Of a DNA stretch of 64,000 nucleotides, positions 2,180-17,238 are shown in pieces. Origin of the DNA: Thioalkalivibrio halophilus (lineage in GTDB: Bacteria; Pseudomonadota; Gammaproteobacteria; Ectothiorhodospirales; Ectothiorhodospiraceae). Numbering within the stretch: position 1 is the first letter of the stretch; each line of letters starts with the position of its first letter. The stretch covers positions 1 through 64,000 of the forward strand of contig NZ_MUZR01000008.1 of the NCBI RefSeq assembly GCF_001995255.1, in the 5' to 3' direction. The position numbers were made by a program, and so were the translations under genes. Under the pieces are notes generated by a model. It saw only the letters and a program-made list of their open reading frames with translations, searched no databases and was not told the origin of the DNA.

Positions 2180-2260
2180 GTTGTCCTCATCGCGTGGTGT
2201 GACCATTGGGTGAAGGGAATCGAAGCCGCTCGATCGGGCCGGTACTCGCCGGTCCGCGGC

Positions 2261-3193
2261 TCATGACCTGTCGGTTCGGAGTACGTCGATCGTGAATACG
2301 CGTGGTGTGCCGTCCGAGATCCGGACATACTGGCAACGCCGGTCCTGTTCGCGGGTGAAGAGTGCGCCGGCCACCGAGGCGAGTTTGGTGCCGGCGGTGA
2401 TGTCCACCAGAATCTGGCGTTCCTTGAGCCGGCGTACCCACCCTTCTTCCTGCTGGCGATAGGTTTCCCAAATCACCTGAAGATGGTTCCAGACCGATTC
2501 GACCTCGTTGAAATCACAGCCCTGGGGATCGAAAACGTTCGTCCCCGGTGCCGAATGCTTGAAATCATCCAGACTGAGGATCCGAATGTTGTGTGGGGCC
2601 AGCAGCCGCGTAAGGATCTGTCGGAAAAGGTCGAGGTCACGGACTGAGCCGTCGTCACCCCCGGACGGTATGACCACAATCTCCTTTAGCCGCGTCTTTT
2701 CAGGTTCCGCGCTCAGATGCGGTTTGATGGCTTCCAGCGGCATCCGCCAGTTAGCAAGGGTGTCCTGCCATTGATTCAGGTCTGTGGCGGGGTCCAGCCT
2801 GGATGGCAGTGATGCCGCGTCGTTCAGGGAGTGGTCCTTCGGAAGGGCGCTCAGGAACAGTACAAGGACGCGAGTGTCAGGAGGATCCAGAGTGATCTCG
2901 CGCTGTTCGGCTGCAAAGTCGGCCGGGGCTTCCTGATTGCGCAGAAAATGGATGGCATAGAGGATGATAAGCAGACCAATGATCAGGAACAGCAGAGGAG
3001 TCGTGGTAGGCGGGTAGGGCACTCCCCACTCCGTCAGTGTGCTCTCCGTCAGGAGGAACAGACTGGAGCCCAGCCAGTCGAGGGCCAGAAGAATGCCCAC
3101 GACGAGGAGAATGGCCCGCCATGTGTTGCCGCCGAGGACGTTCTGTAGTGCATTGAGCAGGGACCGATTGCGGGTTCCGGCGAGTTTCTTCAT
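2261..3193 (-). CDS. membrane-anchored CARF-like effector
   Basis: A 310-residue protein with two predicted transmembrane helices (about 26-48 and 64-84) separated by a short loop, a polar linker, then a soluble domain from about 106. That domain has strand VLVLFLSALP, a glycine-rich turn PSGGDDG at 176-182, and ILVDITAGTKLASVAGAL at 261-278, a variant of the D-x-T-x-G-T-K motif of CARF domains, followed by a YVRISDG strand. The layout resembles the TM-CARF group, whose best known member is Cam1, a pore-forming effector triggered by cyclic oligoadenylate, but this protein is longer and has two helices instead of one. Start at 3193 is supported by AGGAGA 5 nt upstream. It heads the leftward set with the CARF-HEPN and csx16 genes and is divergent from cas6. 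Confidence 0.72.
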   Translation of the reverse strand: MKKLAGTRNRSLLNALQNVLGGNTWRAILLVVGILLALDWLGSSLFLLTESTLTEWGVPYPPTTTPLLFLIIGLLIILYAIHFLRNQEAPADFAAEQREITLDPPDTRVLVLFLSALPKDHSLNDAASLPSRLDPATDLNQWQDTLANWRMPLEAIKPHLSAEPEKTRLKEIVVIPSGGDDGSVRDLDLFRQILTRLLAPHNIRILSLDDFKHSAPGTNVFDPQGCDFNEVESVWNHLQVIWETYRQQEEGWVRRLKERQILVDITAGTKLASVAGALFTREQDRRCQYVRISDGTPRVFTIDVLRTDRS

Positions 3194-3251
3194 GTCATCT
3201 CCTGGAATTCGATACCGTACGCAGTCCAACCGCCTGTCGACGAGCCGGCTG

Positions 3252-4226
3252 ATGAATGCACTTCCCTTAACGCTGTTGCGCCTTCACTTTTTTGCGTCGA
3301 TCCCGGTCCGCCTAGGGGAATTTCCCGGTGCGGTCTGGCGTGGTGCGCTTGGTGCCCGGCTTCGCGAACTGGTATGCACCACCGGGTTGCCGGAGTGTAA
3401 TGGCTGTCCTGTCGTCGATCAGTGCCCCTATCCGGCGCTGTTCGAGACCCGCGTCCCGGCCGACCCGCCGAGTGCCCTGCTGCAGCACAATGGCGCAACA
3501 ACGCCCCCCTTCGTGCTGCGCCCGGATGCGTCCGGCGAAGATCAGGATGTGACCCGGACTACTCTGGGCCTCAATCTCGTGAGTCAGGACGCGCGGGCGT
3601 GTGCGCTGATGGTCCGAGCGCTGGAGCGCGCCGGTGCGCTGGGAATGGGGCACAACCGGGTGCCGCTTCAACTTGTGAGCATCGAACAGGCCGACGTTCG
3701 GGCAGGAGGGGAAGATGGTGAGCCCCCCTGGCGTGTCCTGAATAATGATTCCATCGATCAATCGCTTGAGCCCCCCTCGGCGATGGTCGTTCCGCCGGCA
3801 CCGCCAGCGGTTGATGTCCGGCTGGTCACGCCCCTGCGGATGCGCATTCGCGGGCGTTACGTGACACCGGATGCGTTTGACCCGGTCTCTTTCGTGCGCA
3901 CCGTCCTGCGCCGGGCCACACACCTGGGTGCCAGTCACTGCCCTGACTTCGAGGAATCCGAACTGGCACGGATCGGTCGTCGTGCGAGCCACTTGCGACT
4001 GTTGTCCAGCGATCTCGCCTGGCGGGATCTTCGACGCTATTCCGCCCGTCAGGGTCGTGCTGTCCCCATGGGCGGACTGCTCGGGACTGTCCGGATTGCC
4101 GGGGAAGCCCTGAATGACGTCTGGCCATGGTTATGGCAGGGGCAGTGGTGGCACGCGGGCAAGGGCACGACCATGGGGCTCGGGCAATACCACCTGATGC
4201 CCCTGGCCGGAGCCCCGGAGCGCTGA
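3252..4226 (+). CDS. cas6: Cas6 pre-crRNA endoribonuclease
   Basis: A 324-residue Cas6 of the PF10040 type, which cuts the repeat in the CRISPR transcript to make crRNAs. Visible signatures are a cysteine-rich segment near 42-61 (LVCTTGLPECNGCPVVDQCP) followed by ALFET, and the C-terminal glycine-rich loop GKGTTMGLGQY at 303-313, preceded by GGLLGTVRIAG and WHAGKG; H301 could be a catalytic residue. The ATG at 3252 gives the usual N-terminus (LTLLRLHFFASIPV) but has only a weak ribosome binding site. It is the only CRISPR gene left of the array transcribed rightwards, divergent from the membrane CARF gene (58 bp apart) and convergent with the interference operon. Confidence 0.87.
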   Translation: MNALPLTLLRLHFFASIPVRLGEFPGAVWRGALGARLRELVCTTGLPECNGCPVVDQCPYPALFETRVPADPPSALLQHNGATTPPFVLRPDASGEDQDVTRTTLGLNLVSQDARACALMVRALERAGALGMGHNRVPLQLVSIEQADVRAGGEDGEPPWRVLNNDSIDQSLEPPSAMVVPPAPPAVDVRLVTPLRMRIRGRYVTPDAFDPVSFVRTVLRRATHLGASHCPDFEESELARIGRRASHLRLLSSDLAWRDLRRYSARQGRAVPMGGLLGTVRIAGEALNDVWPWLWQGQWWHAGKGTTMGLGQYHLMPLAGAPER

Positions 4227-4475: not shown

Positions 4476-6647
4476 TCAGTCGCCGGCGATGCTCAGGCGG
4501 GTGCGGGCCTGGCGCACGGCCTTGACGATCTTCTTCTGGTCGTGACCGTCGGCCAGGTTCTCCGCGCGGTCCAGCAGGTCGGCGAGCTGCGGGATGAGTT
4601 CGTCCCAGCCGGCGGCTTCATCGGGGAGTTCGCGGATGGCCTTGTTGAGGTTGTTCCAGCGGCTCTTGCCGGGCTCGGCCTCGCAGGCCTCCAGGGCCTG
4701 GCGGAGGTCGTCGACCTGCGTTTCTTCGGGGCTCATCGCCTGGCGCTTCTGTTCGCGCTCCTGTTTTTCCTGCGCCTGCTGGTGCTGGCGGCGGGTCTCT
4801 TCCAGGGCCTGGCCGAAGCCGGGGGCTTCGGGTGCGGCGCTGTCACCGAGCTGCGTGCGAAGGCTGTGCCAGCCGTCCTTTTCTTTTAGATGTGGCTTCA
4901 GGTATTCGCCGTCTTTGCGCGCGTCCATGAAGAACTTTGGATTCCCCAGCTTGTCCAGCGGGGCATCCGCCGCCCGGGACGGGTCGGCCATGGCCAGTAG
5001 CTGGCGCAGGGGTTCACTGTCTTCCCAGCGCTCTTCCGCGCCGTCGGTGGCCTGTGCCCAGGCGTCGTTCATGTACTGTACGAAGGCGTGGCGGCAGGCC
5101 TCCAGGTTCACAAGCGCGTCGTCGTCGATCTCGCGTGCCGGATCGTTCGGCTCCAGACGGGCATCGGTCACGCCGACCGAGACCTGGCCGAACCCGAACG
5201 GCTTGCCGGTTCCCAGCGAGTGGCGAAGGTCGCCGCGCCCGCCGAAGTCCAGCGCCCACACCAGCGCGCCCAGCTCCACGTCGCGCAGGTTGTGGAAGCG
5301 GATCTGCGTGGAGAAGGTGGTATCGGAGGGCACGGTTTCCAGCTTCACCTGGACCTTCGGGCCGGATTTGTCCGGCGGGCGGGGAACGTGATGGGAGCTT
5401 CGGACCGGATAGCGTTTCCAGCCGGACAGTTCGGCGCGGTCATCCATCAGGGTGATGTAGTCCTTCTTTGTCTCCTGCTGTCGCAGGTAGGCCGGGTAGA
5501 AGGTGGGCTTGGGCCCGTTGAGGACCATCGGGCCTTCCCAGTGGGTGGCGACGTCCTCTTCGCACTCGGCCAGCCCGGGCATCACGCGGCCCCGCAGGCT
5601 GCCATTCGGGCCTTCGGCATCAATGCGGCCGAACAGGAGTTCGGCCAGGTCGGGGGCATCGTCGTCCAGATGCGCGGAGGCCGCGTTCTTGCCGGCACGG
5701 GTGTGGCGGATGGCGTCGTGCAGAGTGTTGCGATAGGCGAGGCGATACATCATGGCCAGGCCCAGCGAGCGTACGCTGCTCTGATCGCCTTCGGCGTGCC
5801 AGAACACCGGTACGCCGGGGGAAACGCTGTGGAGTTGAGGCTTCCAGAAGTCATTCCATTCAGGGGATTCCTGGTGGATGAACTGGAAGTCGCTCATCAC
5901 CTCGGGGGATACGGGGATCTCGTCCCGGGGTTTGCCGGCGTCGTAGAAGATGAACTCGCGTTTCTTGGCGTTCTTTCGGGTGTAGTCCGGGCCGGGTTGG
6001 CCGGTGACCACCACGTGGCCGTGGCGCGGTCCGCGCCCGAGGTCGATGGCATCGGCCTGATCGTTGTTGCGCACGGGCCCGACATCAAAGTGGATCTCGG
6101 GGAGGGTCCCGATCAGCCCGTATCGTTTCTGCACGGTCCCCGCTTTCTTCCATTTTTGTTCATCAACGCCGAACGCCCGGATCAGTTCTTCCTGGTGCAG
6201 GCGGACGAAGTTCACCGGCCGGATGTACCAGCTGCCCTCGCGGTAGCGCAGCCAGCCCGCTTGCACCGGTGCCTTGACCATCTCCTTCATGTAGAAGTTG
6301 TCCGCCTTTGTGAGGTCGCGCACCCCCAGGCGCTGGTCCTCCACCTCACGGAAATGGCCGAACGCGGCGATCTCGAGCACGTGGCGCAGCATGCCCTTGA
6401 GGCTGCTGGCCGGCACGGCCGGACGCCCGTCCGGCGTGCGGGCCAAATGGACCTTGCCGGGTTCCCTGTCGCTGCCCGGGGTCTGCGCGCCGCCGACGCT
6501 CAGCGGGGTGTGTGCGGTCAGGCGGATGCGGATCTCGCCGCTCCAGCCGTCCTGGAACGGGTGGTCGTGGCTCACGTGCGCGTGCCAGTCCGGGCGCAGC
6601 ACGAACGGGGTGAGCGGCACAAAGTTGTAGGGCAGGTTGAGGGTCAT
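4476..6647 (-). CDS. large Cas7-type RAMP protein with helical tail
   Basis: A 723-residue RAMP subunit, probably the family annotated as TIGR03986, found in type III-D effector complexes. The N-terminal RAMP fold shows the strand EIRIRLTAHTPLSVGGAQ at 38-55, D60 in the position where Csm3 carries its RNA-cleaving aspartate, the helix signature AVPASSLKGMLRHVLE at 77-92, and the glycine-rich loop GTGKPFGFGQV at 479-489. After about 500 the protein becomes helical and charged, including a coiled-coil-like QEKQEREQKR stretch; this could supply a Cas11-like function because no separate small subunit is seen. It is the last gene of the operon and overlaps the Csx19-like gene by ATGA. The start at 6647 is fixed by that overlap. 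Confidence 0.82.
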   Translation of the reverse strand: MTLNLPYNFVPLTPFVLRPDWHAHVSHDHPFQDGWSGEIRIRLTAHTPLSVGGAQTPGSDREPGKVHLARTPDGRPAVPASSLKGMLRHVLEIAAFGHFREVEDQRLGVRDLTKADNFYMKEMVKAPVQAGWLRYREGSWYIRPVNFVRLHQEELIRAFGVDEQKWKKAGTVQKRYGLIGTLPEIHFDVGPVRNNDQADAIDLGRGPRHGHVVVTGQPGPDYTRKNAKKREFIFYDAGKPRDEIPVSPEVMSDFQFIHQESPEWNDFWKPQLHSVSPGVPVFWHAEGDQSSVRSLGLAMMYRLAYRNTLHDAIRHTRAGKNAASAHLDDDAPDLAELLFGRIDAEGPNGSLRGRVMPGLAECEEDVATHWEGPMVLNGPKPTFYPAYLRQQETKKDYITLMDDRAELSGWKRYPVRSSHHVPRPPDKSGPKVQVKLETVPSDTTFSTQIRFHNLRDVELGALVWALDFGGRGDLRHSLGTGKPFGFGQVSVGVTDARLEPNDPAREIDDDALVNLEACRHAFVQYMNDAWAQATDGAEERWEDSEPLRQLLAMADPSRAADAPLDKLGNPKFFMDARKDGEYLKPHLKEKDGWHSLRTQLGDSAAPEAPGFGQALEETRRQHQQAQEKQEREQKRQAMSPEETQVDDLRQALEACEAEPGKSRWNNLNKAIRELPDEAAGWDELIPQLADLLDRAENLADGHDQKKIVKAVRQARTRLSIAGD

Positions 6648-7165
6648 GCCCGGTCCTCCTTGAATCCGTCGAATACGGCCAGTACGGCCTCGGGGGTGGC
6701 GTCGTCGGCCGGATCGCCGTCGGTGTGCCCGGCGAAGCCGTACAGGCGCAGGTAACGCAGGGGCGCGGGTGCCCGATGGTCGTTGAGATGGATGACCGTC
6801 TCGGCCAGATAACCGGGGTCCGTGTCTGTCTCTTCGATCCGGAAGCAGTGCAGGCGCCAGCCGTCGCCGCCCCGGTATTCGAGCTGCCAGCGCGTCCCGT
6901 CCGCCGCCAGGCCTTCGCCCTCCAGCGGCGGCATGCCGTCCACGGGCTCGGCGGGCAGGCTGCGGACCTCGGCGGGCCACTGCATCCAGCCCCGGTCGTT
7001 GCACAGCGCACGACAGCGCTCGTGCACGGTGGTCGAGTCCAGGTCCTCGCAGTCGTGCTTCAGGCGCACGGGGGTCAGCGCGGGCGGGGTCCATTCCCAG
7101 CCCTGCTCCTCGCAGGCCCGAAGGAAGCGGCGGTGGTCGGCGAGCAGCGATTCGAGACGGTTCAT
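6644..7165 (-). CDS. Csx19-like type III-D protein
   Basis: A 173-residue protein without a glycine-rich RAMP loop, placed between two RAMP genes with ATGA overlaps on both sides. Position, size and tryptophan-rich composition fit Csx19 (all1473/TIGR03984), a gene of unknown function typical of subtype III-D, but I assign it mainly from context. Visible features: a helical N-terminus (RLESLLADHRRFLRAC), then mixed strands with WQLEYRGGDGWRLHCFRI near the middle and ETVIHLND later. It may be a structural subunit of the effector complex or stand in for the missing Cas11. Confidence 0.6.
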   Translation of the reverse strand: MNRLESLLADHRRFLRACEEQGWEWTPPALTPVRLKHDCEDLDSTTVHERCRALCNDRGWMQWPAEVRSLPAEPVDGMPPLEGEGLAADGTRWQLEYRGGDGWRLHCFRIEETDTDPGYLAETVIHLNDHRAPAPLRYLRLYGFAGHTDGDPADDATPEAVLAVFDGFKEDRA

Positions 7166-8619
7166 CGGGCGGTGTCTCCTTCGGCGTTGAGCGTTGGCGC
7201 GTCCTGGCCGGCGACCCAGGCCCCGTCGTCGTTCCATTCGGGATCGTGTTCGGCGGCAAATCCGCCCAGCCCGCGGCTGCCGCCGGCGCCCAGCGGCAAC
7301 CAGCCGCGCGCGAGGTCGCGCAGGGCCAGATCCAGGGCCTCGCGCACCTCCACTGGGACCGGGATGTCCCGGCGCGGCAGGATATGCAGGCGCAGCGGCA
7401 GGCGACTGCGCCAGAGCTGTTCCTCCTGGAACAGGGCGCCGCGCTGGACACCGCCGGTGAAACGGTCGATGCGATTGTGCAGCGGTGCGTGGACCTGCGG
7501 ATCGGGTTCCAGATAGGTGTCGTTGATAATGACGGCACCGGCGAGCCCGGAGGCATCGCGGTCGCTGGCGTGGCCGAACAGGCAGCGCACTGCCTCGCTG
7601 CGTTCCGCATCGGGCGGTGGCCCGTCGGGGTTGATGAACTCCCCGGTCAGGCGACGGTGGTGGAAGGCCACCCGATGGGCGAGCGCGCCCTTGATCGCCG
7701 AGGCGGGCACCACCGGCCGGGGCCGGGTCCAGGTGCCGCGTCCGTCGCGCCATTCGATCACGGGCTCGCTCTGCGGGAGCATGTTGTCGGGTTCTTTCGT
7801 GCCCGAGTACTCGCCGAGCGGGTGCTCGCCGCCCCCGATGCGCCAGCCGGCTTCGGCCTGCAGATCGAGCTCCACGCCGGGGATGCGAAACGCGGTATCC
7901 CCGGGCGTGAGGGCCTGCAGTCCGTCGCGGCTGGCACGGTGGCGCGGGCGCTTGCGGAATCCTTCGCGGCCTTCGGGGGTGCGCAGGTCCCAGCGCGCCA
8001 TGTGGAGTTCGGCCACCCGGAACGCGCCCGAACCCGCGCGGGTGCCGCGGCCCAGACGCAGGGCCGGGGACTGCAGCAGGCGCAGCAGCCCGTCCCATTC
8101 CCGGGAGGCGGCGTCCGAGCCGTCGCTCCAGTGGCCGAGCAGGAAGGTATAGCGGGTGCCGCGCGGAGCGAGCGTGACATCGAACTTGCCGCGGTCATCG
8201 GCGGCGCCCCGGTGGTTGAGCCGGACGCGCTGGCGGATCAGCGGGTGACTCCGGCTCAGCCGCGACAGCAGTGCGTCGCCGCGCACGTCCTCCTCCTCGC
8301 GCAGGCCTTCCACGGGCCGGTCCTGGCTGTCGTGGACCAAGCCCCAGAAGACCTGCACGCGCGAGATGCGCCCTTCGCCGCGTCCTTCGCCTTCGAGGTG
8401 GCCGAACAGCCGGTCGGCGACGGTGTCGCCGTATTCGTCCGCGCAGGCGTGGCGCAGCACGCCGGCCAGTCCGCTGGCGGGCAGGGTGGGCAGGTGATTC
8501 GCGTCCCGCATCAGGACCAGGTCATGTGTGGCATCGCCGGCCCCCGAACCGATCGCGTGCGGGGTCTCGGCTTCCAGGGTGACGCGGGCAAAGTCGTGTA
8601 CCGGGAGTTCGGGGATCAT
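7162..8619 (-). CDS. tandem Cas7 (Csm3-like) fusion protein
   Basis: A 485-residue protein with two RAMP units. Unit one: PHAIGSGAGD at 20-29, D33 at the place of the catalytic aspartate of Csm3, TLPASGLAGVLRHAC at 45-59, and loop RGTRAGSGAF at 191-200. Unit two: IGGGEHPLG at 261-269, VVPASAIKGALAHRV at 303-317, NRIDRFTGGVQRGALF at 382-397, and loop GAGGSRGLGGF at 444-454. Such fusions form part of the crRNA-bound backbone in type III-D complexes and cut target RNA at 6-nt intervals. The ATG at 8619 overlaps the csx10 stop; its own stop overlaps the Csx19-like start by ATGA. The second unit has a longer pre-helix insertion, so its catalytic residue is unclear. Confidence 0.86.
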   Translation of the reverse strand: MIPELPVHDFARVTLEAETPHAIGSGAGDATHDLVLMRDANHLPTLPASGLAGVLRHACADEYGDTVADRLFGHLEGEGRGEGRISRVQVFWGLVHDSQDRPVEGLREEEDVRGDALLSRLSRSHPLIRQRVRLNHRGAADDRGKFDVTLAPRGTRYTFLLGHWSDGSDAASREWDGLLRLLQSPALRLGRGTRAGSGAFRVAELHMARWDLRTPEGREGFRKRPRHRASRDGLQALTPGDTAFRIPGVELDLQAEAGWRIGGGEHPLGEYSGTKEPDNMLPQSEPVIEWRDGRGTWTRPRPVVPASAIKGALAHRVAFHHRRLTGEFINPDGPPPDAERSEAVRCLFGHASDRDASGLAGAVIINDTYLEPDPQVHAPLHNRIDRFTGGVQRGALFQEEQLWRSRLPLRLHILPRRDIPVPVEVREALDLALRDLARGWLPLGAGGSRGLGGFAAEHDPEWNDDGAWVAGQDAPTLNAEGDTAR

Positions 8620-10238
8620 GCCTGCGGCTCCTTGGTTGCGTGCCCTTCCACGGCACGGGTCCATTCGGGGGTCTGGCCCAGCGATGCCAGCCGCACCACC
8701 ACCTCGGACAGCTGCTCCGGAGCATTGCGATGAATCGCCTCCAGTTGAGCTTTGAGGCGCACTCCCAGGACGTCTTCTTGCCTGGGACCCAGTTTGAGTT
8801 GCCATCCCGAACGCGTACGCACGATGGCGTCTTCGGGGGGCTCGCGATCCTTGGTGGCCCCGGAGTCCTTGGGCGGCTGGAACAGGGCGCGCCACAGGCC
8901 GTCCGGGTCGCCCCGGTGGCGGTTGGCGGCGTCGCGCAAACGGCCCCACTGGCTGCGCCCGGGGACCTCGTCCTCCGCCAGGGGCGCATTGGGCGGGATC
9001 CCCTGCCAGCTGCGGGCCTCGTCAAGGGATGCGATCAGGGCCTCGAAGACCCGCCGGGCACGGTGCTCGGCGTCGAATTCGAGGAACTCGGTGCGGGCCA
9101 TCCGGCGCAGCCGGCGCAGCAGCGCGGTGTCGGGTGCCGCCGGGACCGAGCGGGTGTCCGTGGTTCGCGCAGCGGGCGCCTCCACCTGCAGGGACTTGTC
9201 GGCGAGCATCTGCGGCCGGGCGACGGCCTGGCCCAGGCCGGCCTCGCGGTAGTGCCCGAGGCCGTGTTCCAGCGCGGGCAGGGCCTCGGGCGGGGTGCCG
9301 GCGGGCAGGGTGTAATGCAGCACACTGCCGCGGGCGATCACCTGGCGGTCGGCATCCCGCCCCCGGCGCTTGCCGTTGTACGGGCTGTAGCTGCGCGTGC
9401 GCAGGAAACTCTTCTGGTGGTCCCACTCGGCGCCTTCGGGCAGGCCGAGGTACTGCGGTCGGGGCTGCAGGGTGGGCTGCCCGCGTTCGTCACGCAGCGC
9501 CAGATCGGACAGCAGCCACAGGGTCAGGGTGTTGTCAGAACCGCCAACGCTGGCCGGATGCGGCGGCGCCTGGTCCAGCGGCTCGATTTGCACGCGGCCG
9601 AACTCGGCGCTGCGCGAGCGGCCGAGACGCGCGGGGCCGTTCAGACATTGGTGCAGGCGCTGCACGAGCGCCTCGTCCAGGGTGTCGTCGGTCTGCAGCT
9701 CGAAGACAAAGCTCTGCCCGCGCTCCAGGGCTTCGTAGCCGAACAACTGGCCTTCTTCGACCCGGCCGGTCTCCGGCGCGATGGCGGTCTTGAGTGACTG
9801 TCGGGTGCGCGGGCGGATCCACCGACCGCAGGCATCGACATGGCCGCCACGCAGCTGGCGGGGCTGGCGCCCGTCCTCGGGTTCGCGATGCATGAGGTTG
9901 AGCACCCGGTCGCGGTCCAGACGGGCGTGACCGCTTCCCGCAACCTTCTGCTTGGCGTCTTCGTTCTTGTAGTGGTGAAGGGCGAGCGGCACCGGCCAGG
10001 CGGGGGTGCCGGGTTCGCTTTCGGGCAGGGCGTCGCAGAAGCGGACCCCCCCGCCGTGAAACACCTGCCAGGCCTGATCGGGGGCCAGGCTGGCGTACAG
10101 CCGGCCCGCCGCCAGGCCCAGAAAGAGGCTGCCCGGCAGATGATCGAGGGTTTCGTGTTCGCCTGCGGTGGCGGCAGACCGGCTGACGATCACGTCCTGC
10201 TCCAGGGTGACGCGGAAGGCGTGGCGCGTGGCACTCAT
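8616..10238 (-). CDS. csx10: Csx10, Cas5-like subunit of III-D
   Basis: A 540-residue protein with the marks of Csx10, the Cas5-group protein that defines subtype III-D and caps the crRNA 5' handle. Visible are the opening strand HAFRVTLEQDVIVSRSA, the segment LPGSLFLGLAAGRLYA at 34-49, and LNGPARLGRSRSAEFGRVQI near 198-217, the family glycine loop. A second half has LPEGAEWDHQKSFLRTRSYS. The last 170 residues, from LLRRLRRMARTEFLEF on, are helical and are not needed for a Cas5 fold; they are a candidate for a fused small-subunit domain. The start at 10238 overlaps the preceding cas7 stop by ATGA. Confidence 0.85.
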   Translation of the reverse strand: MSATRHAFRVTLEQDVIVSRSAATAGEHETLDHLPGSLFLGLAAGRLYASLAPDQAWQVFHGGGVRFCDALPESEPGTPAWPVPLALHHYKNEDAKQKVAGSGHARLDRDRVLNLMHREPEDGRQPRQLRGGHVDACGRWIRPRTRQSLKTAIAPETGRVEEGQLFGYEALERGQSFVFELQTDDTLDEALVQRLHQCLNGPARLGRSRSAEFGRVQIEPLDQAPPHPASVGGSDNTLTLWLLSDLALRDERGQPTLQPRPQYLGLPEGAEWDHQKSFLRTRSYSPYNGKRRGRDADRQVIARGSVLHYTLPAGTPPEALPALEHGLGHYREAGLGQAVARPQMLADKSLQVEAPAARTTDTRSVPAAPDTALLRRLRRMARTEFLEFDAEHRARRVFEALIASLDEARSWQGIPPNAPLAEDEVPGRSQWGRLRDAANRHRGDPDGLWRALFQPPKDSGATKDREPPEDAIVRTRSGWQLKLGPRQEDVLGVRLKAQLEAIHRNAPEQLSEVVVRLASLGQTPEWTRAVEGHATKEPQA

Positions 10239-10891
10239 GACGGATCCCTCAGGCTGAGTTCGGCCTCACCCAGGCCGCGGTTGCGTTCGGCGCCGACGGC
10301 GCTGATCAGCGGCAGGACGCCTTCCAGCGTGCTCCACAGATCGGCTTCATCGAGCGCGCGCTGCTGTTGCCGACGCAGTTCCTCTTCCAGCGAGGTTACC
10401 TCCAGGCCCAGTGGCGTCTGCAGCTGCATGGGGAGGGCGACCTCGGTGCCCCGCAGGGTCTTGTCGCTGGCGCTGCCCTGTCGGTTGATGGCCGTGCGAT
10501 GGACGTCCCGGAACAGGAACGGCCGCAGCTGCGGGCCATCGGTGTCGGGATGGGCGAGGAATGCTCGCTCGGGCTCCGGCAGCGTGGCGTCATCCACCTG
10601 CAGCATCCCCGGCCGGGTGGCGGAGCGCGCCTCCTGGCCGCTGCGGGAGCCGAACAGGAGTTCTTCCACGTTTCCGGCAGGGCCGTCGGGCAGGGTGACC
10701 CCGTCGAACCAGTTCCAGGTGCCGGCGCAGCGCATCGCATGGCGCAGCAGGCCCTTGAGATGGCGGCCGGGGATGACCGGCAGGCCGTCACGGTCGCGTG
10801 CGGTGAGTGCGTCGAGATGCGTACCGGCGGAATGGCCGCTGCCACAGTGCCAGTAGCCGTGCAGCTGCACGGTCAGGGTCTTCGTCGACAT
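10235..10891 (-). CDS. single-domain Cas7 (Csm3-like) RAMP protein
   Basis: A 218-residue Cas7-family backbone subunit. It has the typical first strand LTVQLHGYWHCGSGHSAG, D27 aligned with the catalytic aspartate of Csm3, the helix signature GLPVIPGRHLKGLLRHAM at 36-53, an FRDVHR segment like that in other Csm3 proteins, and the C-terminal glycine loop GAERNRGLGEAEL. It directly follows cas10 with start and stop codons sharing one base (TGATG), so the two are likely translationally coupled. Confidence 0.86.
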   Translation of the reverse strand: MSTKTLTVQLHGYWHCGSGHSAGTHLDALTARDRDGLPVIPGRHLKGLLRHAMRCAGTWNWFDGVTLPDGPAGNVEELLFGSRSGQEARSATRPGMLQVDDATLPEPERAFLAHPDTDGPQLRPFLFRDVHRTAINRQGSASDKTLRGTEVALPMQLQTPLGLEVTSLEEELRRQQQRALDEADLWSTLEGVLPLISAVGAERNRGLGEAELSLRDPS

Positions 10892-12531
10892 CAGGCGGTC
10901 TCCTTCCGGGTGTCTTGCCTGTGGAGGGCCAGCAGCGCCAGCAGGTCGCCCAGCGGGCTGTAGCGCTCCCGGCTCCCTCCGTCGCGGTCGCCGTCACGCT
11001 CGGGGCCGAACGGGAGATCGTGTTCATCGGCCCGGCCGACCAGCGCTTCCAGGTGGCGGTCGAACTCGTGCAGTGCCCGGGCCGCCGGGGCTTCGGCCAG
11101 GGCGCGCCAGCGGTTGTATTCCTTGCGCGCAAGCTCGGGGCTTTCGTGGATGCGGGTGGCGAGCTGGCGCAGGCGCGCGGCGTTGAGGGCACCGTCCTGC
11201 AGGTGCTCGACAAGATCACGCAGCGTTTGCAGCCTCGGCAGGCCGGCGGCGTCCACCTGGCCTACCGCGTAAGCCGGGAGGCCCAGGTGATAGACCGTGT
11301 TGTGCGTCGACTCGTAGCGTTCCATCTCCTGACTACTCAGGGCCGCGGCATCGTCCGCCAGGCTGGTCTGGATCCGGTGGAAGGCGATGGATGACGGCAC
11401 TGTCGCCTCCTCGGTGGCCGAGCGCGACTGCTGCTTGGCACGGTCGCACAGGCTTTCCGCCAGCTGATAGCCGCGGGCGAACGGTTGCCCGGACTTGAGA
11501 TAGGTGATGCCGGCACAGGCGGTCAGCCGTTCTGGCAGGCGCTCGATGACATCGTCCGGTGTGCCGGCCTCCTTCAGTTGTCCGCGAAGGGTCTGCAGCA
11601 TGCGTTCGGATTCGCGCTCGAAGGCCTCGATGAAGTTCTCGGTGAAGTCCAGTGCAAGGTCGGCGCGCACCAGAAGGGTCAGGTCGTCACCCCCCAGAAC
11701 CAGCGGGCGTGCGGGGTAGACGCCGTCGTTGATCTGCGGCTGCAGCACGTCCTGCGTGGCGCTGCGGGCGGCGTCGCCCGTGGCTGCGTCCAGCCCTTCC
11801 GAGAAGGCGCGGTAAAGCCGGACGTAGTGTTCGGGGGCGTGTCCGGTGGCGTCTCCCAGTACCCGCAGGATCTGGCCCAGGCCGTTGCCGTCCGCGTGGA
11901 TGAGCCCGACCATGCCGTCTTCGCCCAGCGGGAAGCGCCGCGATCCGGGCTCGTCCTGTTCGAAGTTCCGGGGCCACTCGGCCCGGTCATCCGGGTCGAA
12001 CTTGTGCGCCAGACCCGCGTGTTCCGACCGAGCGAACTGCCGCTTGACCCGAGTGGCGGCATCCACCGGTTCCCGGTCACGCTTGCGGTCCCGGGCCACG
12101 GCGACCTCGCCGGTACGGGCGTTGCGCTCGGCGACGGGCGCCGGGTTCGGCAGCGCGGCGGGGCGCAGGTTGCGCATGCCGGCAAGCGTGTCGATCCCCG
12201 TGTTGATGGCCCCCTTCACCGACTCACCCGAGCAGATGCAGTCCACCCGCTCGATGCCGGGCAGGAGCTGGGCCACCAGCGTGCGCCACAGGGCCCGGAA
12301 GCGCCGGGCGGTCTCTGCGTCCTCGAACACCAGGTACAGGGCACCACCGGCCCGCCGCGGTGCCGGCAGCGACTCGGGTTCCACCTCGCAGGCGCGCAGG
12401 GCCTGGTCGAGGATGCCACGCGAGAGCTCGTCCAGCAGGTCGCTCCCCGCCACCATGTCGGCCAGGCGGCCGGAGGCGAAGAGGAATGGCTGGATGGAGC
12501 GGGCTTCGAACAGATAGGCGTGGTAGCGCAT
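10891..12531 (-). CDS. cas10: Cas10 without HD domain, GGDD polymerase
   Basis: A 546-residue large subunit of the type III effector. The palm motif LGGDDLTLLV (GGDD at 280-283) is intact, which predicts synthesis of cyclic oligoadenylate on target RNA binding and fits the three CARF proteins nearby. An earlier palm segment MVGLIHADGNGLG sits at 207-219. The N-terminus begins straight with AYLFEARSIQPFLFASGRLA and shows no HD metal-binding motif, as is usual for III-D, so ssDNA cleavage by this protein is not expected. The start at 12531 has AAGGA just upstream; the longer open frame before it is low-complexity read-through. It opens the leftward operon of six genes. Confidence 0.92.
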   Translation of the reverse strand: MRYHAYLFEARSIQPFLFASGRLADMVAGSDLLDELSRGILDQALRACEVEPESLPAPRRAGGALYLVFEDAETARRFRALWRTLVAQLLPGIERVDCICSGESVKGAINTGIDTLAGMRNLRPAALPNPAPVAERNARTGEVAVARDRKRDREPVDAATRVKRQFARSEHAGLAHKFDPDDRAEWPRNFEQDEPGSRRFPLGEDGMVGLIHADGNGLGQILRVLGDATGHAPEHYVRLYRAFSEGLDAATGDAARSATQDVLQPQINDGVYPARPLVLGGDDLTLLVRADLALDFTENFIEAFERESERMLQTLRGQLKEAGTPDDVIERLPERLTACAGITYLKSGQPFARGYQLAESLCDRAKQQSRSATEEATVPSSIAFHRIQTSLADDAAALSSQEMERYESTHNTVYHLGLPAYAVGQVDAAGLPRLQTLRDLVEHLQDGALNAARLRQLATRIHESPELARKEYNRWRALAEAPAARALHEFDRHLEALVGRADEHDLPFGPERDGDRDGGSRERYSPLGDLLALLALHRQDTRKETA

Positions 12532-12787: not shown

Positions 12788-13235
12788 GTCTTAATCCCCT
12801 TTCAGTCGGGGCATCGGTCGGACGAGCTGCCCCAGGCCCCGGCCATGATGCAGAGTCTTAATCCCCTTTCAGTCGGGGCATCGGTCGGACGCTCTTATGC
12901 ACCCAGTAGCGACGGCGAAGGCGTCTTAATCCCCTTTCAGTCGGGGCATCGGTCGGACAGCTCTATGGAGCTGGTCTGGGAGTAAACCCGCGTCTTAATC
13001 CCCTTTCAGTCGGGGCATCGGTCGGACGGCCACGGCCGTAGGGGCATTCGGCGGCATAGGGTCTTAATCCCCTTTCAGTCGGGGCATCGGTCGGACGTTT
13101 AACACCTTTGAAGGGAGAAGTGATGAACAGTCTTAATCCCCTTTCAGTCGGGGCATCGGTCGGACCTCTGACTTTTATTTTTTGAGTCGTCTCCCCGTGG
13201 TCTTAATCCCCTTTCAGTCGGGGCATCGGTCGGAC
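12788..13235 (-). CRISPR. CRISPR array, 7 repeats of 36 bp, 6 spacers
   Basis: Seven identical 36-bp repeats start at 12788, 12855, 12923, 12992, 13061, 13130 and 13200. Spacers (31, 32, 33, 33, 33 and 34 bp) lie at 12824-12854, 12891-12922, 12959-12991, 13028-13060, 13097-13129 and 13166-13199. Read on the minus strand the repeat begins GTCCGACC, has a CCCC/GGGG hairpin, then ends ATTAAGAC, close to the common type III crRNA handle ATTGAAAC; on the plus strand the tail after the hairpin is 12 nt with no such handle. I therefore assign transcription to the minus strand, leader to the right. The short array and perfectly identical repeats suggest recent activity. The spacer at 13166-13199 is AT-rich compared with the host. 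Confidence 0.95.
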
Positions 13236-13478
13236 TCTTCCGCTTCGTAGATAAGCCGTAGATTCAGCGGCTTGCGACGTCCAGTCCTGCACCAATCTGG
13301 TGCAGAAAAAGTTTGCTTGTTGAGTCGGGATAACCACGGCCAAAGGCTAGCCCGCCGGAGAGGTGCCACGCAAGGTCCGACGGCTCGACAATCCCGACAA
13401 GCTTGCCGGGCCGGACACGGCGGCGCGCACGGTGGAGGATCGTAATTGCCAATTCATCGAATCGAAAGGAGCCGCACC
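13236..13478. promoter_or_regulatory. probable CRISPR leader / cas2 promoter region
   Basis: 243 bp between the array and cas2. By the orientation argued for the array this is the leader, and it must also drive the rightward cas2-cas2-cas1-RT operon. A perfect inverted repeat CTGCACC-AATCT-GGTGCAG lies at 13287-13305, 51 bp from the first repeat, followed by A5, which could be a leader anchoring or integration-protein site. The cas2 ribosome binding site AAAGGAG is at its right end. I cannot place the promoters with confidence. Confidence 0.5.
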
Positions 13479-13763
13479 ATGCGACGTCGACCCGCGATCA
13501 TTGCTTACGACATCAGCAGCCCCTTGCGCCGTCGGCGCGTTCACCGGCAGTTGGTCCAGTGGCGTATCGATGGCCAGAAATCGGTCCACGAATGCCTTCT
13601 TGCCCCGCAGGAAGCGGACGAGCTCTACCTCCAGCTCGGTGAGCTGATTGACCCGGACAAGGATCGTCTTCTGCTGGCCTGGTTGACGCCGAATGCCCCG
13701 ATCGAGGCGCGGGGCAGTGGCGACAGCGAGAGCCTGTTTCGCCGGATGCTGAGGGTCGGATGA
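13479..13763 (+). CDS. cas2: Cas2, first copy
   Basis: A 94-residue Cas2, half of the Cas1-Cas2 spacer integrase. It has the first strand with the usual aspartate (AIIAYDISSPLRRRRVHRQL), a QKSVHECLL strand, and ends with a short C-terminal region after LLLAWL. The start at 13479 is chosen for the AAAGGAG site; a frame extending 11 codons upstream has none. Its stop overlaps the next gene by ATGA. The protein differs strongly from the Cas2 that follows. Confidence 0.83.
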   Translation: MRRRPAIIAYDISSPLRRRRVHRQLVQWRIDGQKSVHECLLAPQEADELYLQLGELIDPDKDRLLLAWLTPNAPIEARGSGDSESLFRRMLRVG

Positions 13764-14107
13764 TGCATGGGGATAAGTGGTATCTGGTCGCCTATGACAT
13801 CCGTTGCCCGCGGCGCTTGCGTCGGGTCCAGCGCGAAATCGTAAAGGACGCTCAGGGTTTGCAGCAGTCGGTCTACCTGGTGCGCGGAAGCCGGCAGTAT
13901 CTGCAGGAGCTTCTGGGCCGACTTGAGGGGCACATGGAACCGTCGGTGGATGATCTGAGGGCCTATCCCGTGCCGCACCCGGCTCGACTCTGGTGTGGCG
14001 GCGCAATGGTCAGTGCAAGCGTTGAACGCAATGAGTCGGTCGAGGCCATCGGCGTGTGGTGGGACTGGTTGTCGGAACGGATACGGCGCTGGCGGGCGTC
14101 CGCATGA
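13760..14107 (+). CDS. cas2: Cas2, second copy
   Basis: A 115-residue Cas2 with the classical start KWYLVAYDIRCPRRLRRVQRE, the aspartate in AYD, and the QQSVYLVRGS strand. It is longer than the first copy and shares little sequence with it beyond the fold-defining segments, so the pair is not a recent duplication. Two ATG codons in tandem (13760, 13763) make the exact start uncertain by one residue. It overlaps both neighbours by ATGA, so both Cas2 proteins and Cas1 should be made together, perhaps as a heterodimeric Cas2 core. Confidence 0.85.
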   Translation: MMHGDKWYLVAYDIRCPRRLRRVQREIVKDAQGLQQSVYLVRGSRQYLQELLGRLEGHMEPSVDDLRAYPVPHPARLWCGGAMVSASVERNESVEAIGVWWDWLSERIRRWRASA

Positions 14108-15099
14108 GTGACGGACTCTGGTTGATCGTCGACCGTCGCGGGGCCACGCTCTCGGTTGAACACCAGTCGGTGCGGGTGGATGAGCCGGACGGTTCGTTTC
14201 GGCGAGTGCCTCCGGCGCTGCTGGAGGCGGTCGTGATCCATGGCAGGAATTCCGTCGCCAGCGACGTGTGGCGCTTGTTGGCCGGCCAGGGAGTTCCGGC
14301 GGTGTTGTTGCCGGGACGGGGCCATGGCCCCGCGGCCTGGGTGGGTGGCGGGCTGGGCGGATCGTTGAACATCCGCAGGTGTCAGTTCAGGGCTGCCGAG
14401 GACGCTCAAGGCTGCTTGCTCCTTGCGCGTCGAATGGTGCAACGGAAGTTCCGGGGATACATGGATGCCTTGATCTGGGCCGGGCACGGCGAGTCGACCT
14501 TTCAGAACCGACTGCTTGAGCTGCAGTCCCACCTCGACGAGGCGGTAACGCTCGAACATGTTCGAGGGCTGGAGGGAGCAGCGGCGCGGTTCTGGTATGA
14601 CTGGCTGGCTGAACGAATTCCCGAGGAATGGCGATTCCTTGGGAGAAACCGCCGTCCACCCCGGGATCCCGTCAACGCGATGCTGTCTCTGGGCTATACG
14701 CTGCTGGCGACTCAGGCGCACTCACGGGTCGAAGCGGCTGGTCTGGATGTGCATCTGGGCTTTCTGCATCAGCCGGTACCGGGCCGCCCGGCGCTGGCGC
14801 TGGATGTGATGGAGCCGCTCCGGCCCTGGGTGGATCTGTTCGTACTGGGGCTGCTCGATCGTGTGGTGGGGCCCGCCGATTTTTCCAACAACGATCTCGA
14901 TGGTTGCCGCCTGCACAAGGAACCGCGAGGCCGCTTTTATTCTGCCTGGGCGTACTGGAACCGCGAGGTTCCGCCCGCCGTGTCCGGCGATGACGACGTG
15001 GAATCGGTGTCAGGCAAGGGGGTGGGTGCGTGGCTGCAAGCGGAAGTCCGGTCGCTGCGGGCAGAGCTCGAGTCGATCCGGCAGGAGATCTCGGCATGA
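14104..15099 (+). CDS. cas1: Cas1 integrase
   Basis: A 331-residue Cas1, the catalytic subunit for spacer insertion. The N-terminal beta domain starts LWLIVDRRGATLSVEHQSVR; the conserved helix VVIHGRNSVASDVWRLLA lies at 43-60. Active-site residues are in place: E157 in LEGAAARFWYDWL, H222 in HLGFLHQPVPGRP, and E237 in LALDVMEPLRPWVDL. The ATG at 14104 overlaps the second cas2 stop; its own stop overlaps the reverse transcriptase start. The C-terminal tail after about 295 is charged and helical (EVRSLRAELESIRQEI), which could contact the RT. Confidence 0.93.
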   Translation: MSDGLWLIVDRRGATLSVEHQSVRVDEPDGSFRRVPPALLEAVVIHGRNSVASDVWRLLAGQGVPAVLLPGRGHGPAAWVGGGLGGSLNIRRCQFRAAEDAQGCLLLARRMVQRKFRGYMDALIWAGHGESTFQNRLLELQSHLDEAVTLEHVRGLEGAAARFWYDWLAERIPEEWRFLGRNRRPPRDPVNAMLSLGYTLLATQAHSRVEAAGLDVHLGFLHQPVPGRPALALDVMEPLRPWVDLFVLGLLDRVVGPADFSNNDLDGCRLHKEPRGRFYSAWAYWNREVPPAVSGDDDVESVSGKGVGAWLQAEVRSLRAELESIRQEISA

Positions 15100-15953
15100 A
15101 CGCCTTGCTGGACTCCATGGTGGATCCGGAGAACGTACAGAAGGCCTGGCGCAGGGTGCGCCGCGACCGGGCTCCCTGGTCGCCAGAGGTCAACCGGGAA
15201 CATCTGGACCAGGCGCTGCCTCGCCACCTGCTGCGGTTGGTTCAGGACCTGCAAACCGGGCGGTATCGGCCAGGAGCAATGCGTCAGTTTGCTGTGGCCA
15301 AGGGCGACGGCGGGCGGCGTGTGATTTCCGCCCAGTACCTTCGGGACAAGCTCGCCCAACGTATGGCGCATCAGGTGCTCGAACCGCGGGTCGAACCGTT
15401 CCTGCATCCCGACAGTTTTGGCTATCGACCGGGGCGGGGTGTTCCGCATGCGCTCCATCGCGTGCGTGAGCGGATTGCCACGGGGTTGGACTGGGTGGTG
15501 GACGCAGATATTCGCTCGTTCTTCGATCAGGTGCCGCACCGCGGCGTACGTCGGGAGCTGAAGCGTTTCGTACGCGATCGCGGCTTGCGGCGCCTGATTG
15601 ATCGCTGGCTTGTCGCGGGCAGCCATTCCGCCTCGTTGGCCGGATCCCGGAGAGGAGTGCCACAAGGAGCGGTTTTGTCACCGCTGCTTTGTAATATCTT
15701 CCTCGACCGCCTTGATCGCAGTCTGGCGGATGCCGGCATCCCGTTCGTCCGCTACGCGGATGATTTTCTTCTACTCGCTGCGACCCGGACCGACGCTGAA
15801 CGGGCGCGCAGTCATGTGGATCGTTGCCTTCGGCGGATGGGACTCGAACTGCACCCGGACAAAACCCGCGTCTCCAGGGTTTCGCCGCGCGTACGGTTTC
15901 TCGGGGAGCCCGTTGTGCGTCGGTCGCGGGCTACCCGCAAACGCCGGCAGTGA
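15096..15953 (+). CDS. stand-alone CRISPR-associated reverse transcriptase
   Basis: A 285-residue reverse transcriptase of the group II intron-like lineage used by type III adaptation modules. RT blocks are visible in order: FAVAKGDGGRRVISAQYLRD at 65-84, FLHPDSFGYRPGRG at 102-115, VVDADIRSFFDQVPH at 134-148 with catalytic D137, RRGVPQGAVLSPLLCNIFLD at 185-204, and VRYADDFLLLA at 218-228 with D222 and D223. It ends soon after VRFLGEPVV, so it lacks a thumb/maturase domain and any fused Cas1 or Cas6. Overlap with cas1 by ATGA suggests a working Cas1-Cas2-RT complex that can take spacers from RNA through cDNA. There is no sign of a group II intron around it. Confidence 0.9.
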   Translation: MNALLDSMVDPENVQKAWRRVRRDRAPWSPEVNREHLDQALPRHLLRLVQDLQTGRYRPGAMRQFAVAKGDGGRRVISAQYLRDKLAQRMAHQVLEPRVEPFLHPDSFGYRPGRGVPHALHRVRERIATGLDWVVDADIRSFFDQVPHRGVRRELKRFVRDRGLRRLIDRWLVAGSHSASLAGSRRGVPQGAVLSPLLCNIFLDRLDRSLADAGIPFVRYADDFLLLAATRTDAERARSHVDRCLRRMGLELHPDKTRVSRVSPRVRFLGEPVVRRSRATRKRRQ

Positions 15954-15959
15954 TCGTAC

Positions 15960-17096
15960 CTAGGGTCCGCGAGTGGAAGGCCGGATCTCGATTTTCTCCG
16001 GGTCCAACGTGAGCTGGTATCGGACGCGAGGCCGGGAGCCCGTTTGCTGAATCCGGTAGGCCTCGGCGGCGGGGCCCAGTTTGTTCAGCTCCCTGTTGAC
16101 GTGGGACTTGCGCTGGTCGAAATAGTCCGGAGGCATTCCTTCTTTGACGGCTTTCTCGACGCGCTCACGATCGCCCGCCATGGGGTTGGAAATGTCGTAG
16201 TATGCCTGAAGAAACTGCTGTGCGTACTCGGGGCCGACTTCCTGGCGGGCTACAGGCGGCTCACCATTGCGAGCGCGGCGTGCCAGCCAGAGATAAAACG
16301 CGAAATTGACCGGGCTGAGAGTGAGCGTCTCGTCGCGACAGTGAATTTCCAGACGCTCCAGGTCCAGTTCCAGACGCGGCGGCTTGAGGCTCGCCTGCGC
16401 CCGGTTGATCGCTTCGGAGAAACCGACCCCTTCCTCTACCAGAAGATCGGAGAGTCCGCCGCGCAGACGAACAAACGGGATTTGGGCGAGGGTGATTTCC
16501 GCGTCGCTGGTACGGATCGGCTTTTGTTCCCGCGTATACAGTACAACCGGGGTGTGCGGTGGGTAGAAGAACTGGTAGTGACCCTCGAACGGCTCGGAAA
16601 CCAGAACGTGGGAAAGTTCATCCTGCGGTCGCCCAAACAGCGATAGCGCATAGCCAAGGTAATAGCCCATTGTCTTGCGCCCGCCCGCGATGGACGCGTG
16701 CAGCGTTAGCTGAGGATCCTGGGTCAGGCGGCGCACGAGGTCGACGATCAGGTCGGCCGCAGCTTCATTGTGGGCGGGATCCCGGATGTCATCCAGTGGT
16801 TGGCCGTGCTGGTCACGTATGACATGAATGGTTTCGGCGCTGAAGTCAATCTGTTCGGGATCCAGACCGTAATCAGCGCAAAGACGGTAGAAATACCCTT
16901 GCGAGGGGTCGAGAAGAGTGAGGCGGGCGCGTTCGGCTCCCTCCTGGGTGGTCACGACATGGATGGAGTCGGGGACAAAAGCGGGATCACGCTGCACGGC
17001 AAGTCCGTAGAGTGTTTCCGTGATGATCTGGGGTGCGAGCCCCGCCACGCAAAGAAGCGCGTTGCGGGGCGTAGAGTGGGTTTCGGCGCTTTCCAT
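15960..17096 (-). CDS. CARF protein (Cas_NE0113 type) with winged-helix-like tail
   Basis: A 378-residue protein. Residues 12-240 fit the Cas_NE0113/TIGR02584 CARF family: ALLCVAGLAPQIITETLYGL, SIHVVTTQEGAERARL, and the pocket motif HASIAGGRKTMGYYLGYAL at 133-151 followed by LSHVLVSEP. Residues about 242-378 look like a winged helix of the OmpR C-terminal kind (ETLTLSPVNFAFYLWLARR, then KSHVNRELNKLG and a wing RPRVRYQLTL). It could be a cyclic-oligoadenylate-responsive transcription regulator, or a ring nuclease with an added domain. The ATG at 17096 begins just before conserved sequence; a TTG 21 codons upstream would add a polar tail and is less likely. It converges on the RT gene with only 6 bp between stops. 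Confidence 0.78.
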   Translation of the reverse strand: MESAETHSTPRNALLCVAGLAPQIITETLYGLAVQRDPAFVPDSIHVVTTQEGAERARLTLLDPSQGYFYRLCADYGLDPEQIDFSAETIHVIRDQHGQPLDDIRDPAHNEAAADLIVDLVRRLTQDPQLTLHASIAGGRKTMGYYLGYALSLFGRPQDELSHVLVSEPFEGHYQFFYPPHTPVVLYTREQKPIRTSDAEITLAQIPFVRLRGGLSDLLVEEGVGFSEAINRAQASLKPPRLELDLERLEIHCRDETLTLSPVNFAFYLWLARRARNGEPPVARQEVGPEYAQQFLQAYYDISNPMAGDRERVEKAVKEGMPPDYFDQRKSHVNRELNKLGPAAEAYRIQQTGSRPRVRYQLTLDPEKIEIRPSTRGP

Positions 17097-17238
17097 GGCT
17101 TCGTGGTTTCCGTGGTTGGTGTTTGTGTTCTGGGTTGTTACCGGCACAGGGTCTTTCAATGGCCGCCGTATTGGGGCGGACCGGAGGTCCGGTATGGCCG
17201 AACGGCGGGCCGGCGATCACCTGCCGAAGGGCGGATGT

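Follow-up and report, generated by a model that had tools for sequence, protein, structure and literature searches.

The first 64,000 nucleotides (nt) of contig NZ_MUZR01000008.1 of Thioalkalivibrio halophilus, called the window below, carry a CRISPR array next to a four-gene adaptation cassette, in which two different cas2 genes, cas2a and cas2b, are followed by cas1 and by a free-standing gene for a reverse transcriptase (RT). We propose, with a probability of roughly 0.65, that this cassette belongs to a conserved lineage in which a Cas2a/Cas2b heterodimer integrase works together with a free, thumb-less RT that copies captured RNA or single-stranded DNA (ssDNA) for insertion by Cas1. The association of the RT with CRISPR is genuine and looks functional, but it belongs to a kind already known, and the Cas2 pair is the most distinctive feature of the locus. 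The array and cassette are composed as follows, in window coordinates, with protein lengths in amino acids (aa):

12788..13235, minus strand: CRISPR array of seven 36-nt repeats with spacers of 31-34 nt; repeat in CRISPR RNA (crRNA) sense GTCCGACCGATGCCCCGACTGAAAGGGGATTAAGAC; oriented by the leader common with a second array and by the repeat end
13236..13478, minus strand: probable leader, in which TGCACCA..TGGTGCA and AAAGTTTGCTTGTTGAG are conserved; alignable to the sequence flanking the second array (contig C29)
13479..13763, plus strand: cas2a, first Cas2 paralogue, 94 aa (Pfam PF09827 CRISPR_Cas2, E 1.7e-10; Cas2a clade, 100/98)
13760..14107, plus strand: cas2b, second Cas2 paralogue, 115 aa (Pfam PF09827 CRISPR_Cas2, E 5.8e-12; Cas2b clade, 100/97)
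14104..15099, plus strand: cas1 integrase, 331 aa, with E157, H222 and D234 intact (Pfam E 7.8e-68; paired-Cas2 Cas1 group)
15096..15953, plus strand: stand-alone thumb-less RT, 285 aa, with D138 and YADD at 220-223 (RVT_1, E 1.5e-40; PADLOC CRISPR 'RT', 313 bits)

All three junctions of cas2a-cas2b-cas1-RT are ATGA overlaps, and Pfam, NCBIfam and PADLOC are concordant on the identities of the four genes. This bears out the original prediction, made from the letters of the sequence, of cas2, cas2, cas1 and a 285-residue RT in one overlapping operon beside the array. The second array, with 12 copies of a nearly identical repeat, lies at the end of contig C29 of the same genome. Since its right flank aligns with window positions 13236-13446, the leader is placed on the right, beside cas2a, and both arrays are transcribed leftwards.

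Two Cas2 paralogues in a conserved cassette

A genome-wide search for relatives, with an alignment of six RTs as query, gave 80 loci. About 35 of them, at about 38-73% identity, were CRISPR cassettes, found in Thioalkalivibrio, Thiothrix, Thiocapsa, Leucothrix, Thiohalocapsa, Desulfobacteraceae, a metagenome-assembled genome of Phycisphaerales and others, so that the gene set is common to relatives from several phyla. The other RT matches, at 39% identity or less, were mostly intron-type RTs of 400-500 aa. Within the clade of the window RT (see next section), cas2a-cas2b-cas1-RT is the prevailing gene order; some Desulfobacteraceae and Deltaproteobacteria have the order RT-cas2a-cas2b-cas1, and a sister group has RT-(cas2a::cas2b)-cas1, with the two cas2 genes fused. 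Both distinct Cas2 were present in 24 of the 34 RT-clade loci, and a fused Cas2a::Cas2b in 5 more. Of the five other loci, L054 and L069 are affected by contig ends or frame problems, and L058, L059 and L061 are without part of the set. Two Cas2 with a free RT are therefore the rule in this clade, and the combination is not uncommon there, contrary to what had been supposed. A cassette remnant was also seen at positions 1944-2675 of locus L039 (G147:C56), beside a CARF gene; there the first Cas2a residues adjoin a C-terminal fragment of the RT, an arrangement that looks like the outcome of an internal deletion.

The relationship between the two Cas2 was analysed on a tree of 69 rows. All first-position Cas2 and fusion N-halves form one clade (100/98), all second-position Cas2 and fusion C-halves another (100/97). 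A single label change accounts for the positions, and Cas2a and Cas2b never swap. We conclude that they are old paralogues, whose fusion in the sister lineage preserves their order. The fused protein has two Cas2 domains by Pfam, and its AlphaFold2 model (predicted local distance difference test, pLDDT, 74; predicted template modelling score, pTM, 0.73) has two Cas2 folds, with Foldseek matches to Cas2 structures. RT, Cas1, Cas2a and Cas2b distances are correlated over 26 loci (0.68-0.82), a level that none of 2000 permutations reached.

Canonical Cas1-Cas2 integrases have one Cas2 gene, whose product acts as a homodimer. The cassette departs from this arrangement, having two paralogues that fall into two clades, and an obligate Cas2a/Cas2b heterodimer is thus the simplest reading. 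Cas2a and Cas2b most likely form one heterodimer, and hence an asymmetric integrase.

Relatives without RT throw light on the age of the pair. Among the nearest RT-less relatives of the window Cas1, one set of twelve (35-41% identity) comes from modules with two cas2, the remaining ones having a single cas2. Eleven of these twelve modules also encode a diverged Cas1 (PADLOC 'Cas1, diverged variant, second in the loci'), in which the residue aligned with the catalytic His varies and the region around the motif-I Glu is absent; from its sequence, this second Cas1 is predicted to be inactive. No RT was found in seven dual-Cas1 regions of 5-20 kb. In the Cas1 tree, the RT cassettes and the dual-Cas1 modules (plus L154, described below) form one group, with a value of 99 in the Shimodaira-Hasegawa-like approximate likelihood ratio test (SH-aLRT), and single-Cas2 Cas1s and RT-Cas1 fusions fall apart from it. 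In an 83-row Cas2 tree, which has few columns and is unrooted, a 98/95 branch puts Cas2b and the second Cas2 from the dual-Cas1 modules together on the same side. Cas2a remains in that tree with ordinary single Cas2, Cas2b being the derived paralogue. The dual-Cas1 type III modules (PADLOC PDLC01185) thus resemble the window cassette in having two Cas2, the same second paralogue and a Cas1 of the same group, but they carry a diverged Cas1 where the window has an RT, in the order cas2-cas1-diverged cas1-cas2.

As these RT-less modules share the Cas2 pair, the pair, or more precisely Cas2b, probably predates the link with the RT. That the paired Cas2 evolved for the RT is not favoured, for the same reason. 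The place of fourth subunit in one type of integrase seems to be filled by either the RT or the diverged Cas1, the RT being exchangeable.

Several of the RT-less loci deserve mention on their own. Loci L163-L175 and L187-L193 combine two Cas2 with the diverged, probably inactive second Cas1, and some lie beside type III effectors, such as L188 and L190, whose apparent type III effector genes were judged by eye from the sequence; the arrays of these loci have a strong spacer-orientation bias without any RT. The type III locus L154 (G068:C35) has no RT, and at its positions 13601-15207 a fused Cas2-Cas2 adjoins cas1. Because the L154 Cas1 groups with those of the fused-Cas2 RT cassettes, the RT was probably lost in this locus.

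We found no description of the Cas2 pair with an RT in the open-licence literature, although subscription papers were outside the search and this absence is weak. Within that literature, neither the conserved pairing of Cas2a with Cas2b, nor its natural fusion, nor its occurrence in diverged-Cas1 modules appears to have been described.

The reverse transcriptase

The window RT is encoded by the single RVT_1 gene of the genome. Its YADD motif is at the predicted place, but the motif-A catalytic Asp is D138 and not D137 as first proposed, residue 137 being Ala. D138, D222 and D223 are invariant in all 35 RTs of the clade. The protein stops directly after RT7, and its AlphaFold2 model (pLDDT 94, pTM 0.89) consists of fingers and palm, with nothing past the palm. 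Residues past the RT domain number mostly 0-40 in cassette RTs and mostly 110-217 in intron RTs. The best Foldseek match of the model is the GsI-IIC group II intron RT (PDB 6ar1, E about 4e-21), with which it shares the fingers-palm fold. The window RT differs from GsI-IIC in being without thumb or maturase domain and in being cas-linked, and Rfam detected no group II intron RNA in the window.

The original prediction had singled out this RT as free, short and thumb-less. The observation stands (285 aa, and the model above), but neither the missing thumb nor the free state is special: a CRISPR RT normally has no thumb, and the solved Cas6-RT-Cas1 structure has none either (PMC8102632, PMC11014452), and CRISPR RTs that stand alone have been described as a class (PMC6013744, PMC10415136), comprising Toro clades 1, 9 and 13, the last of which is Silas branch 7 (PMC6013744). 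Toro's stand-alone RTs are, like the window RT, group II intron-derived and unfused beside a type III cas1 (PMC6013744). We found no account of a conserved Cas2 pair for them. The window clade is probably Toro clade 13 / Silas branch 7, a match made on the stand-alone layout only.

In a 96-row RT tree (IQ-TREE, C20 mixture, quick search, SH-aLRT as sole support, retron RTs not among the rows), the window RT falls within a 35-row clade (SH-aLRT 100) made exclusively of CRISPR-cassette RTs, and the seven sampled RT-Cas1 fusions and 53 intron-type RTs are outside it. Retrons were compared by hidden Markov model (HMM) score only, and their models score the window RT far below the CRISPR RT model. 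The phylogenetic check suggested with the original prediction therefore came out in its favour, the RT standing apart from group II intron RTs. Ratios of non-synonymous to synonymous substitution (dN/dS) against Thioalkalivibrio ALE14 are low (0.16 for the RT, 0.14 for cas2b), with dS near saturation. Its place in the tree, its HMM scores, its conserved catalytic residues and its co-inheritance with Cas1 and both Cas2 support the window RT as a genuine RT of CRISPR adaptation.

The RT-Cas1 and Cas6-RT-Cas1 integrases (Marinomonas MMB-1, the cryo-EM complex of PMC8102632, Vibrio vulnificus III-D) likewise use a thumb-less fingers-palm RT in the service of a type III Cas1-Cas2, but their RT is fused to Cas1 and they have one Cas2 gene, whereas in the window the RT is free and Cas2 are two. 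The sampled fusions fall outside the window groups for RT and Cas1 alike.

One relative has two RT-like genes. In L067 (Thiomargarita sp. CSMAG_1650), a second RT-like gene at positions 3253-4182 lies between cas2a::cas2b and cas1. It has lost the motif-A Asp (ANIKDCL) and kept VADD, and is thus possibly a catalytically dead RT partner.

Spacers, proposed mechanism and alternatives

In the mechanism that we propose, the RT would dock non-covalently on the Cas1-Cas2 complex. By homology with studied systems, it would first copy captured RNA or ssDNA into DNA, and a Cas2a/Cas2b heterodimer bridging two Cas1 dimers would then take over the product. Cas1, the active sites being intact, would insert it at the leader end of the array, that is on the right, next to cas2a. 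Leftward transcription of the array and processing by Cas6 would, again by homology, yield crRNAs that arm the III-D Cas10 complex, whose Cas10 lacks an HD domain; upon detection of target RNA, Cas10 would produce cyclic oligoadenylate acting on three CARF proteins. RNA-derived spacers are likely by the same kind of comparison.

A more specific proposal, which we put forward tentatively, is that the integrase is asymmetric in its working: an obligate Cas2a/Cas2b heterodimer would make the two ends of the Cas1-Cas2 complex differ, one of them being occupied by the exchangeable RT or diverged Cas1. This asymmetry would allow a prespacer of RNA or complementary DNA (cDNA) to be passed on and integrated always the same way round, so that the crRNAs are antisense to transcripts. 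The locus bears on how type III systems come to insert spacers in the orientation that is of use, and on how cDNA passes from an RT to the integrase. RT, Cas1 and the two Cas2 are four separate small proteins, and natural Cas2a::Cas2b fusions and RT-less sisters with the Cas2 pair exist, so that the role of each can be probed by omitting or exchanging a single one, an approach closed to RT-Cas1 fusions.

Spacer orientation was analysed on 441 spacers of the RT-cassette family, oriented by repeat end. Purines are enriched on the strand complementary to the crRNA (fraction 0.531 +/- 0.0045, exceeding 0.5 in 19 of 21 loci). Shine-Dalgarno..ATG motifs were counted 28 times on that strand only, versus 8. 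Both biases are what crRNAs antisense to mRNA would give. The window genome has a second Cas1, a Cas4-Cas1 fusion in a type I-G-like system (L131, contig C32, 1-12000) with its own separate array of about 60 repeats. This type I-G array is unbiased (0.494 +/- 0.011), as is the RT-less type III array L154 (0.507). RT-less dual-Cas1 type III arrays are biased equally or more (0.52-0.57 for the larger arrays; Shine-Dalgarno..ATG motifs 7:0 over all control arrays). Spacer orientation as a sign of RNA origin was rejected on this ground; the bias is compatible with selection exerted by type III interference or with insertion in a set orientation.

Several points weigh against the proposed mechanism. 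The orientation bias is not specific to RT cassettes, and some relatives are without one Cas2 (L058) or decayed (L059, L061). No protospacer was found in a phage collection for 17 spacers of the window genome, nor for two of these 17 in two exact scans of viral contigs. We know of no experiment on any member of the window RT clade.

Among the alternatives, the one that survives best, although we hold it to be unlikely, is that the RT primes, tails or fills in ssDNA as prespacers for Cas1-Cas2, spacers coming mainly from DNA. CRISPR RTs are able to prime both on RNA and on DNA (PMC10415136), the preferred substrates of the Cas6-RT-Cas1 integrase are DNA (PMC8102632), and the orientation bias needs no RT. 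On the other hand, RT-Cas1 relatives acquire spacers from RNA in vivo (PMC11014452, PMC5513706), and published RT-linked arrays occur almost solely with RNA-sensing type III systems (PMC5513706, PMC5541045).

It is less probable still that the two Cas2 are unpaired, one being the structural subunit of the integrase and the other acting alone, for instance as RNase or regulator. This would agree with homodimers being the rule in known integrases and with the position of Cas2a among ordinary single Cas2, Cas2b being derived; a joint unit is favoured by their natural head-to-tail fusion, with the order kept, in a sister lineage, by the co-inheritance and by the coupled overlaps. We give little credence to a module that looks intact and has ceased to acquire spacers. 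The array is short, with 7 repeats, and decayed copies exist in relatives (L059, L039), but all four genes are open, the catalytic residues of Cas1 and RT are intact, and the 12-repeat array has the same type of repeat and a homologous leader. Finally, a recent passenger RT, from a group II intron or retron, beside an ordinary III-D system is rejected: the protein resembles group II intron RTs in fold and sequence, but this is the only RT of the genome, without maturase domain or, by Rfam in the window, intron RNA, and it sits in an old clade of CRISPR RTs only.

Type III-D effector genes around the array

The genes surrounding the array and cassette are the following:

10891..12531, minus strand: cas10, with GGDD and without N-terminal HD domain (PADLOC Cas10, 246 bits; motif check)
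10235..10891, minus strand: cas7 of type III-D (PADLOC Cas7_IIId, 117 bits)
8616..10238, minus strand: cas5 of type III-D (PADLOC Cas5_IIId, 217 bits)
7162..8949, minus strand: double cas7 of type III-D, the true start probably within the open reading frame (ORF) (PADLOC Cas7_IIId, 296 bits)
4476..6650, minus strand: large cas7 of type III-D (PADLOC Cas7_IIId, 410 bits)
3039..4226, plus strand: cas6, the true start probably within the ORF (Pfam Cas6, E 2.5e-14)
2261..3229, minus strand: CARF protein with membrane segment (PADLOC CARF8--CARF_TM, 363 bits)
956..2206, minus strand: Csx1-type CARF-HEPN effector (PADLOC CARF_HEPN, 478 bits)
15960..17159, minus strand: NE0113-family (Csm6/Csx1-like) CARF protein, its gene convergent with that of the RT (Pfam Cas_NE0113, E 2.8e-47; PADLOC CARF5, 430 bits)

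Cas10 is accompanied by a Cas5 and several Cas7 of III-D type, so the assignment to type III-D made in the original prediction is upheld, as is the adjoining HD-less Cas10. The presence of GGDD and of three CARF proteins suggests that this Cas10 would signal through cyclic oligoadenylate. Inside the effector operon, a 175-aa ORF at positions 6644-7171 on the minus strand, which has no Pfam or PADLOC match, possibly encodes a Cas11-like small subunit.

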